The position numbers and the translations under genes are program-made. A stretch of 64,000 nucleotides of DNA from an uncultured Cytophagales bacterium (GTDB lineage Bacteria; Bacteroidota; Bacteroidia; Cytophagales; UBA9547): NCBI GenBank assembly GCA_945957555.1, contig CAMFLX010000008.1:1-64000 (forward strand), written 5' to 3'. Positions within the stretch are counted from its first letter, which is position 1, and every line of letters starts with the position of its first letter. A model generated the notes under the pieces. That model made no database searches. It saw only the letters and a program-made list of their open reading frames with translations, and was not told the origin of the DNA. Below are positions 15,944-18,287 of the stretch, piece by piece.

Positions 15944-15977
15944 GCATTTAATGATTTTAACCCTTTGTAATGCCCCC

Positions 15978-15993
15978 GCTATTTCAATAGCGC
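15978..15993 (+). other. Small hairpin after the globin gene
   Basis: CGCTATT-TC-AATAGCG, a perfect 7-bp inverted repeat 35 bp after the globin stop. No T-run follows, so it is not a standard terminator. Confidence 0.3.
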
Positions 15994-16030
15994 TTCCTGA
16001 GAAATTTGTTACATATCCACGGGCTTTTAC

Positions 16031-16387
16031 ATGCAGGCAAACATCTCCAATGCTTCCTTCAAGTGCTCTTTATACCTCTCCTTTACACACCTAGAAGCCA
16101 ATCAATCGATGCCAGAAACGCATCAATCGGCGCCAGACGTCAATCAATCTGTGCCAGAGGACCATCAATCTGCGCCAGAAGTGCATCAATCAACACCTGA
16201 AGGCAATCAATCGATACCAGATGCCCATCAATCAAGGCCAGAAATGCATCAATCGGCGCCAGACCCCAATCAATCGACGAAGGAGGCTCACCAATCGATG
16301 CCAGAAGCGCATCAATTGTATTTATTTATTCCTTGCTCATTTGGAGAACATGGACTAAGGCAAAATGTAGGAATGCTACTGTCCTGA
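16031..16387 (+). CDS. Possible small heptapeptide-repeat protein (uncertain)
   Basis: A 118-residue frame starting at ATG 16031 that spans the 21-bp array. The middle (about residues 24-96) is ten (N/H)QSxPEx heptads; the flanks (MQANISNASFKCSLYLSF and LYLFIPCSFGEHGLRQNVGMLLS) show no known domain. No good ribosome-binding site or promoter is visible. An alternative frame is also open across half of the array, so the repeats may be noncoding. In favour of coding: third-position changes at the Ser, Pro and Glu/Asp codons and no stop in the whole frame. It lies 90 bp upstream of the G+C-rich gene at 16478. Confidence 0.3.
   Translation: MQANISNASFKCSLYLSFTHLEANQSMPETHQSAPDVNQSVPEDHQSAPEVHQSTPEGNQSIPDAHQSRPEMHQSAPDPNQSTKEAHQSMPEAHQLYLFIPCSFGEHGLRQNVGMLLS
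16100..16318 (+). repeat. Tandem 21-bp repeat array, ten units plus a partial
   Basis: Ten consecutive 21-bp units starting at 16100, 16121, 16142 and so on, with a truncated eleventh at 16310-16318. Consensus is (A/C)AT CAA TCN NNN CCA GAN NNN. In the frame that stays open (16031-16387) each unit reads (N/H)QS-x-P-(E/D)-x. Codons 4 and 7 differ in almost every unit (residues M, A, V, A, T, I, R, A, T, M and T, V, D, V, G, A, M, P, A, A). The constant codons vary mainly at third positions. One unit replaces Pro with Lys. Unit spacing is exact throughout. Confidence 0.85.
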
Positions 16388-16406
16388 AAATATTTTTTAA
16401 AAAAAT

Positions 16407-16423
16407 TATTGTGCTACACAATA
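16407..16423. promoter_or_regulatory. Operator-like 17-bp palindrome
   Basis: TATTGTG-CTA-CACAATA, perfect 7-bp arms, located 55 bp upstream of the start of the 300-aa gene, near where its promoter should be. The cognate regulator is unknown. Confidence 0.4.
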
Positions 16424-16477
16424 AAGCGTGTGTGCCTTTCGTTTTGAGGGTACAAATAACATTTAATTTATTTTATT

Positions 16478-17380
16478 ATGAACAAGTCGATTTTGGCTAA
16501 ATCTAATTCTTACGGGAAGCTCGCTTTATTCTTCCCTGATCATGCAAGTGTATGGGACGACTTTCCTGTACTTAAGGAAGAGGTGAGCAGCTTCTTTTCT
16601 CTCAAGGCTCAGTTTGAAAAGGCCTCCAAAAATCAAAGCGCGGATACTAAGGGTCTGACCGATGCAAAAAATGCAAAGCTCACCCTAACCAAGAAACTTT
16701 GCATTAAGCTCTGTCTCAAAGCGGTGACTTGGGCGCGCAAGGCAAATATGCACGAAGCGTTGGCAACATTGAATATTACCGACGACAGCTTTAACGTGCC
16801 CCAGTCGTCACAGATCCTCATCGCTAAAAACGTGGTCACGGTACTTCGCAAGAACCTTGCAGCGCTGGAGGCTTACAGGATCAGGGAGGCTGATGTACAG
16901 GCTCTGGAGGAGGCGATCAAGCTCGCTGAAGGGAGCATCGCCACCCCTGCCCTCGCGAAAAACGCAAAGGGACTGGCGAGCTCTTCACTGGACGAGTTGG
17001 TCGTGCTTATCGATGAGGTGGTACTGAACATCAACAACCTCCTCGTGGCTGAGTATGAAGAAAGCCATGGCGAGATGGTCGACAAGTTCTTATTGGCCAA
17101 AAGGGTGGATAAACTGCCTGTGCGGCATACGGTATTACGTGGCAAAGTGAGCCGTGCTGGTACGCATGAACCGCTACAGGGGGCTTTTTGCAACCTCTTG
17201 GAGATTGCCGATGAGGAGGTTTTTAGTGACCTCAACGGTTTCTACGAGATCAAGGAGTTTAAGGCAGGCTCGATGACCTTTGAGGTACGACTGGAGGGTT
17301 ACGAGACGTTTTCTCAGGTGCTAAATATCAAGCTTGCACAGGTGCTTGAGCTTAACGTAGCACTGAAGCCTTTGGGCTGA
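16478..17380 (+). CDS. Helical protein with C-terminal carboxypeptidase-regulatory-like domain; function unknown
   Basis: 300 residues, no signal peptide. Residues 1-210 are predicted to be mostly helical (KNQSADTKGLTDAKNAKLTLTKK; LAALEAYRIREADVQALEEAIKLAEGS). Residues about 218-300 form a beta-sandwich of the CarboxypepD_reg/PEGA-like kind (LRGKVSRAGTHEPLQGAFC..DLNGFYEIKEFKAGSMTFEVRLEGYET). The gene is visibly richer in G+C than its neighbours (over 55% in places against under 40% around it), which suggests different ancestry or strong codon selection. It is preceded by an operator-like palindrome and followed by its own terminator. No biochemical role can be assigned. Confidence 0.7.
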   Translation: MNKSILAKSNSYGKLALFFPDHASVWDDFPVLKEEVSSFFSLKAQFEKASKNQSADTKGLTDAKNAKLTLTKKLCIKLCLKAVTWARKANMHEALATLNITDDSFNVPQSSQILIAKNVVTVLRKNLAALEAYRIREADVQALEEAIKLAEGSIATPALAKNAKGLASSSLDELVVLIDEVVLNINNLLVAEYEESHGEMVDKFLLAKRVDKLPVRHTVLRGKVSRAGTHEPLQGAFCNLLEIADEEVFSDLNGFYEIKEFKAGSMTFEVRLEGYETFSQVLNIKLAQVLELNVALKPLG

Positions 17381-17454: not shown

Positions 17455-17497
17455 CATAGGGCTGCACCCTATGCTATGGAATGACACCCTTTCAGGG
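17455..17497. repeat. REP-like hairpin pair, type A, copy 1
   Basis: CATAGGG-CTGCA-CCCTATG (17455-17473) followed by the small stem CCCT-TTC-AGGG (17487-17497). The same pair recurs at 17643-17686 and, degenerated, at 18312-18330. Confidence 0.75.
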
Positions 17498-17535
17498 CTT
17501 GAAAGTAAACCTCAAATTAAAGCTTAGTATCAATG

Positions 17536-17618
17536 CGATATTATACGAATTAATAAAGTGCCATGATCCCGAGCCCTGCAAGGGCGTAATATACCAACGA
17601 TGGGGGTAGCCCATCGGA
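17536..17618. repeat. REP-like block, type B, copy 1 (83 bp)
   Basis: Contains the hairpins GCCCT-GCA-AGGGC (17573-17585) and CGATGGG-GGTAG-CCCATCG (17598-17616). The same 83-bp block recurs at 18413-18495 with four differences (about 95% identity), in the same orientation, on the far side of the transposase gene. Confidence 0.85.
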
Positions 17619-17642: not shown

Positions 17643-17686
17643 CATAGGGCTGCACCCTATGCTAAGTGATAACGCCCCTTCAGGGC
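17643..17686. repeat. REP-like hairpin pair, type A, copy 2
   Basis: CATAGGG-CTGCA-CCCTATG (17643-17661) identical to the first copy, followed by GCCC-CTTCA-GGGC (17674-17686). Confidence 0.75.
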
Positions 17687-17730
17687 TTTAAAGTAAACTT
17701 CAAATAAAAGTATTCATAGATAATAAGTCA

Positions 17731-17834: not shown

Positions 17835-18287
17835 ATGGGGCAGTCTCTGGCGAAAAACTATGTACACATTATATTTGGCACCAAACACAGGGAGCCACTG
17901 ATCAACTCCACTATAGAAGCTGAGTTACATAACTACCTTGGAGGTATCTGCAACAGACTCGAATGTTATCCGATAAAAGTTGGTGGCTTTACTAATCACA
18001 TCCATATCCTTTGCCTACTTTCCAAAAAGATAGCCCTAATGAAGCTTGTGGAGGAACTGAAATCGCACTCCTCCAAATGGATCAAAACAAAAGGAGCTGC
18101 CTATCAAAACTTCTATTGGCAGGATGGCTATGGGGCATTTTCGGTAAATCCCTCAGAGATCGATGCTGTGGTAGTCTACATTGCCAACCAACATGAACAC
18201 CATCGTCAACATTCTTTCCAAGATGAGTATCGTGTATTTCTTAAAAAGTATAACGTGGAGTATGACGAGCGATATGTTTGGGAGTAG
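17835..18287 (+). CDS. REP-associated tyrosine transposase (RAYT, Y1/IS200-like)
   Basis: 150 residues, full length. An HUH-type single-strand nuclease: the metal-binding pair is HIH in GGFTNHIHILCLL, and the catalytic Tyr is in VVYIANQHEHH. The typical tail (KKYNVEYDERYVWE) is intact. RAYTs act on REP hairpins and are usually single-copy domesticated genes rather than full insertion sequences. This gene sits between REP-like hairpins on both sides (17455-17686 and 18312-18495), so gene plus repeats form a complete-looking REPtron. ATG at 17835 is chosen because the family starts M-x-QS-L. Confidence 0.92.
   Translation: MGQSLAKNYVHIIFGTKHREPLINSTIEAELHNYLGGICNRLECYPIKVGGFTNHIHILCLLSKKIALMKLVEELKSHSSKWIKTKGAAYQNFYWQDGYGAFSVNPSEIDAVVVYIANQHEHHRQHSFQDEYRVFLKKYNVEYDERYVWE

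Follow-up and report, generated by a model that had tools for sequence, protein, structure and literature searches.

The window, by which we mean the whole 64,000-nucleotide stretch analysed here, corresponds to the beginning of contig C8 from an uncultured Cytophagales bacterium. The genome amounts to 6.25 Mb in 413 contigs (denoted below by C and a number), and the RimO it encodes shares 81% identity with its counterpart in a Cytophagaceae MAG and 79% with the one in a Sporocytophaga MAG. On the forward strand, repeat, lag-identity and column analyses place ten in-phase 21-bp units with the consensus (A/C)ATCAATCnnnGCCAGAnnnn at 16100-16309, and the unit alignment adds a partial eleventh, CATCAATTG, at 16310-16318. 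An AT-rich spacer on the same strand (16319-16477, G+C 0.29), which presumably carries the promoter and leader, runs from the array to the start codon of an orphan gene at 16478-17380 (forward strand), defined as an ORF and by structure prediction. This gene encodes 300 aa and belongs to what we call family A. The preliminary description had placed the array upstream of a G+C-rich gene, and this holds, with a gap of 161 bp and a gene G+C of 0.50 as compared to 0.38 genome-wide; of all that the description contained, this neighbour has turned out to tell us the most. Farther downstream, at 17835-18287, lies a Y1_Tnp (RAYT-like) transposase gene, which is discussed below.

The periodicity of the array is strong. 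Identity at lag 21 is about 0.68-0.69, while 1000 dinucleotide-preserving shuffles gave a mean of 0.27 (sd 0.03, maximum 0.39) and the runner-up 210-bp stretch within the window reached 0.42. The exact 21-bp unit first reported is thus borne out. Identity stays at 0.69 at lag 42 and rises to 0.74 at lag 63, which indicates higher-order structure. Within the unit, columns c2-c8 (ATCAATC) and c13-c17 (CCAGA) are conserved, with the centres of the two blocks approximately 10 bp apart, and the variable positions fall into two contiguous blocks of 4-5 bp (c9-c12, and c18-c21 together with c1). The array had been read as heptapeptides with hypervariable codons 4 and 7. The variable columns are real, but because they sit in two contiguous blocks about 10 bp apart, codons 4 and 7 with the third positions of their neighbours are only one way to read them. 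Of the harmonics of column conservation, the second, at 10.5 bp, is significant (p=0.005) and the one at 3 bp is not (p=0.33). A homologous array of 18 units on C222 repeats this pattern more strongly (p=0.0002 and p=0.94). Neither array shows a significant codon periodicity of the kind that a coding role called for.

The open frame across the array

A frame of 118 aa is open at 16031-16387 on the forward strand and reads (N/H)QSxP(E/D)x without a stop through all ten units, just as first described. One explanation is that it encodes a small, fast-diversifying repeat protein, (NQSxPEx)n. The frame has the lowest pN/pS of the six (0.50), the unit length is a multiple of three and an ATG is present upstream. 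Against this, when the columns of the array were permuted, 27% of the permuted arrays reached a pN/pS of 0.50 in some frame and 88% had at least one stop-free frame. The homologous array on C222 carries TAG in two of its 18 units (TATCAATAG), in the same frame as NQS, and the one on C346 carries TGA and TAA in the equivalent frame. Since the two TAG units of C222 stand eight units apart, the stop-bearing unit seems to have been propagated within that array. The 118-aa product has no Pfam or PADLOC match, and its comparison to PHROGs gave only two weak matches to tail proteins (E 0.009 and 0.02) of the kind that repetitive sequences often give. In addition, arrays of the wider class described below that are closed in all six frames still keep the 21-bp unit. 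We therefore judge the open frame not to be a gene and regard the repeat protein as very improbable.

Given that there is no significant codon harmonic, that openness and pN/pS are at the level of chance, that C222 has stops in frame and that no protein family matches, the focal array is most likely noncoding. Of the readings in the preliminary description, the third, a noncoding repeat whose frame is open by chance, is the one supported. The coding readings largely fall on grounds that the description had itself named, as the homologous arrays on C222 and C346 are broken by stops in the same frame. A practical consequence is that open frames over 21-bp arrays are at risk of being mis-annotated as repeat proteins. 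Being made of head-to-tail units in the 10-100 bp range between genes, the array has the layout of a bacterial noncoding minisatellite or VNTR. The units are spaced by two helical turns and lie upstream of a gene, and a phased, iteron-like operator array would be arranged in this way if that gene were regulated through it.

A genome-wide class of 21-bp arrays

When the genome was searched with the array, a check that the preliminary description had suggested, the focal unit family was found on five more contigs (C222, C346, C28, C103 and C257), and weak protein matches led to many more arrays with differing unit sequences and the same period. We surveyed 1.26 Mb of the genome using Tandem Repeats Finder (TRF), keeping arrays longer than 60 bp. 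Among the 31 arrays obtained, 14 have period 21 and seven have period 42; periods 20, 22, 23, 40, 41 and 43 occur once each, and three of the four remaining arrays lie inside ORFs (30 bp in an ORF of 3936 aa, 27 bp in 819 aa and 78 bp in 634 aa). The 21- and 42-bp arrays, and likewise the six with periods of 20-23 or 40-43 bp, are intergenic, are found in every gene orientation and have many unrelated unit sequences. Extrapolation from the surveyed 1.26 Mb gives approximately 130 arrays in the genome. Comparing the arrays across the genome revealed no motif common to all of them. Some loci do have unit families in common (C3, C62 and C291; C8:67895, C176 and C121), and there the homology is mostly confined to the array.

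The unit length is kept with great precision. In 23 period-21 arrays with 275 units, there are 851 mismatches to consensus but not a single out-of-phase unit, a count that is somewhat biased by the preference of TRF for in-phase arrays. Many 21-bp arrays have stops in all six frames (C13, C39, C5, C28, C222, C2 and C103b), and most of the arrays closed in this way are included in the phase count. Because they too keep exact phase, a reading frame does not explain the fixed unit length, and we consider it very probable that the class as a whole is a noncoding satellite.

Several loci show further features. On C346 (L006, positions 1-140), a CATCAATC-family array adjoins heptamer repeats of the form AGTnnTC, some 60 bp ahead of rimO, and both C346 and C222 break within their arrays. 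A perfect (AATAACC)8 heptamer array ends contig C257 (6858-6912). At C6:33433-33546 a 22-bp array with the unit CCCAAAAGCTACAGAGCTTTTA, a clear palindrome, lies 40 and 74 bp from two convergent genes and is possibly a tandem bidirectional terminator.

No arrays of period 21 or 42 were present in 1.52 Mb from 80 named Cytophagales contigs. The sampled genomes from the same family hold few arrays, with periods of 21, 63 and 126 bp, as well as 7- and 14-bp heptamer arrays.

Gene families downstream of the arrays

AlphaFold2 predicts that the product of 16478-17380 consists of helices over residues 1-208 and a beta domain at residues 219-300. The latter is a transthyretin-like/CarboxypepD_reg domain, which in structure searches matches the transthyretin-like domains of carboxypeptidase D/N (Z about 13-14, rmsd 1.3-1.4); a resemblance of predicted folds such as this one would imply no function for the protein. 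The searches returned solely this domain and gave nothing for the helical part. A PADLOC match to Ppl (E=0.0005) covers only the helical part and was taken as chance. The focal gene had no match in named genomes.

A protein search found three further full-length paralogues of family A, on C203 (49% identity) and on C79 and C42 (both about 20%). All four full-length genes have a 21- or 42-bp array upstream, at 161 bp (C8, the focal gene), 163 bp (C203), 155 bp (C79) and 255 bp (C42). The array units show no detectable similarity among the four loci.

A second family, B, comprises proteins of 232-240 aa encoded at G+C 0.52 without a Pfam match. Arrays lie upstream of all four genes tested (C13 131, C14 139, C2 349 and C176 120 bp), which had first come to notice through their arrays. 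A search with a family profile added a full-length member on C361 and a partial one on C87, both outside that count of four, and family B is also present in five other Cytophagales. Structure searches with the helical domain of family B returned nothing significant, the model of B being poor. No member of family B was found in viral contigs, and the array and its genes had no match in phages and plasmids. Short matches to the last 30-50 residues of family A (C138:1329) and family B (C153:6544, C298:2961 and C218:4606) proteins also occur, some of them with stops, and these are either gene remnants or shuffled 3' ends.

The same association becomes apparent when all ORFs are considered. We examined 845 ORFs, and an array lies within 500 bp upstream of nine of the 34 with a G+C of at least 0.46 and downstream of none, compared to 11 of the 811 other ORFs with an array upstream (Fisher p=1e-8, to be taken as a guide only, since the threshold of 0.46 was set with the results already in view). 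We think it likely that the linkage of arrays to G+C-rich orphan genes is real.

The neighbouring transposase and candidate REP-like elements

Three copies of the Acido-Lenti-1 RNA (RF01687) lie just upstream of the Y1_Tnp gene, at 17455-17499 and 17643-17687 on the forward strand and at approximately 17572-17616 on the reverse strand, and the best of them is above the gathering score. A further weak copy occurs near the C140 Y1_Tnp gene (L272:748-792). Acido-Lenti-1 may be a REP-like element of Y1_Tnp-type transposases rather than an sRNA.

The presence of this gene 1.5 kb downstream suggests another origin for the array, namely that its units are REP-like and were spread by the RAYT-type transposase. 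A 21-bp array does lie within 1.5 kb of four out of ten Y1_Tnp loci as compared to four out of 60 control loci, but the p-value of 0.012 is modest and the comparison is confounded by short contigs. Palindromes are seen in the units but not in excess (mean z +0.15), which led us to reject the hairpin idea, and the array has no flanking inverted repeat. The Acido-Lenti-1 palindromes next to the transposase gene appear to be the true REP-like elements of the locus, and we consider a REP origin of the array remote. The RNA fold of the focal array is unremarkable (z -0.58).

Discussion

Bacterial tandem repeats are usually viewed as slippage products or as typing markers. What sets the present arrays apart is that a single unit length prevails between genes (21 bp, and secondarily 42 bp) even though the unit sequences are unrelated. 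We propose to regard the array as a helically phased minisatellite that does not code for protein, travels with accessory genes and perhaps regulates them, a reading that we hold with about even confidence. The members of the class are held together by a near-invariant unit of two helical turns (21 bp) or of 42 bp, and not by a common unit sequence. At the focal locus the proposed upstream module would consist of the array, the AT-rich spacer of approximately 160 bp and the G+C-rich accessory gene 16478-17380. The array could then serve as a phased, cis-acting platform close to the promoter. Its two conserved blocks, about one helical turn apart, would bring the same face of the DNA into view every 21 bp, and this face may be presented to a DNA-binding or nucleoid protein beside the promoter, so that gain or loss of units would tune expression or the local DNA topology. 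Such a cis-regulatory action is put forward tentatively as a possibility that falls a little short of an even chance. As no motif is common to all arrays, a single sequence-specific regulator is unlikely to serve them all. The candidates left are the shape or topology of the DNA and partners that differ from locus to locus. A further reading is a two-part module of array and orphan gene, in which each helical/Ig-like protein of these families would recognise its own upstream 21-bp array and the two would diversify as matched pairs across many loci of the genome; we regard this as unlikely.

The main rival to a cis-acting platform is a satellite without function, in which the 21-bp intergenic arrays are a by-product of replication slippage or recombination in this lineage, are tolerated and accumulate beside horizontally acquired genes. 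The arrays lie in every gene orientation, with ten of 34 in a convergent setting, and their neighbours taken together show no upstream bias (20 upstream vs 23 downstream); being as often downstream as upstream favours the functionless satellite. Homology limited to the array joins distant loci, higher-order periods of 42, 63 and 84 bp point to block duplication, and relatives of the same family hold arrays of 7, 14, 21, 63 and 126 bp. The linkage to gene families, on the other hand, favours function. An array is found at all the tested genes of families A and B, mostly with unrelated units, three of the four gaps in family A fall within 155-163 bp, the G+C-rich ORFs have arrays upstream only (nine vs none) and the unit length is strictly kept. 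Taking both sides into account, we view a functionless satellite as a serious but on the whole doubtful explanation. If the prevalence of one unit length and the placement of arrays upstream of families of G+C-rich orphan genes hold, the arrays would offer a testable case of selection on the length of a DNA repeat instead of on its sequence, and they would mark out accessory genes of a class not yet described.

Comparison with known repeat systems

The closest described systems are BrickBuilt and the heptamer intergenic repeats, and tests for the defining features of both gave negative results here. The BrickBuilt MITE minisatellite of Porphyromonas gingivalis likewise belongs to a member of the Bacteroidota, is intergenic, occurs at many loci and has a short unit (23 nt) without spacers; an influence on neighbouring transcription has been proposed for it (PMC4596501). 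It differs in that its unit sequence is uniform and that it has leader and tail segments as well as IS5-type terminal inverted repeats (PMC4596501), whereas the arrays described here are built of many unrelated units with a 21-bp period and lack inverted repeats at their flanks. Around the focal array (15944-16478) there are no inverted pairs of at least 10 bp, and matches to the BrickBuilt terminal inverted repeats in the window are at chance level, so a BrickBuilt-type MITE was rejected.

Heptanucleotide (STRR-like) intergenic repeats, such as TAACTGA, are known from Beggiatoaceae, Cyanobacteria and some Bacteroidetes; they too are direct repeats that often lie upstream of start codons and change in length by whole units (PMC4679880). 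As in that system, there are 7-bp arrays here, both in the present genome (C257) and in other family members. Those repeats differ in having a single invariant 7-nt unit (PMC4679880), while the arrays here have units of 21 or 42 bp. A heptamer origin was also rejected, the identity of the focal array being 0.25 at lag 7 vs 0.69 at lag 21. Identity at lag 7 is at or near background in most arrays, the exceptions being C39 (0.45) and C4 (0.40).

Like the arrays described here, the REP and BIME elements associated with TnpA_REP/RAYT are intergenic, form dispersed families within one genome and have a transposase nearby, but REPs are palindromes (PMC2817692, PMC3733652) and the present units are not enriched for inverted repeats. 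The VNTRs and minisatellites used in MLVA typing resemble the arrays in having tandem noncoding units with degenerate copies (PMC1513380, PMC1488860). A CRISPR needs constant repeats and unique spacers of at least 25 bp; the variable blocks here are just 4-5 bp. The array was correctly said at the outset to be neither a CRISPR nor a simple slippage tract. We know of no typing scheme that focuses on a single unit length shared by unrelated sequences lying upstream of specific gene families. A literature search found no description of such an array class, which is not proof that none exists. In kind, then, this is a noncoding minisatellite; its novelty lies in a single unit length prevailing among unrelated sequences and in the linkage with families of orphan genes.
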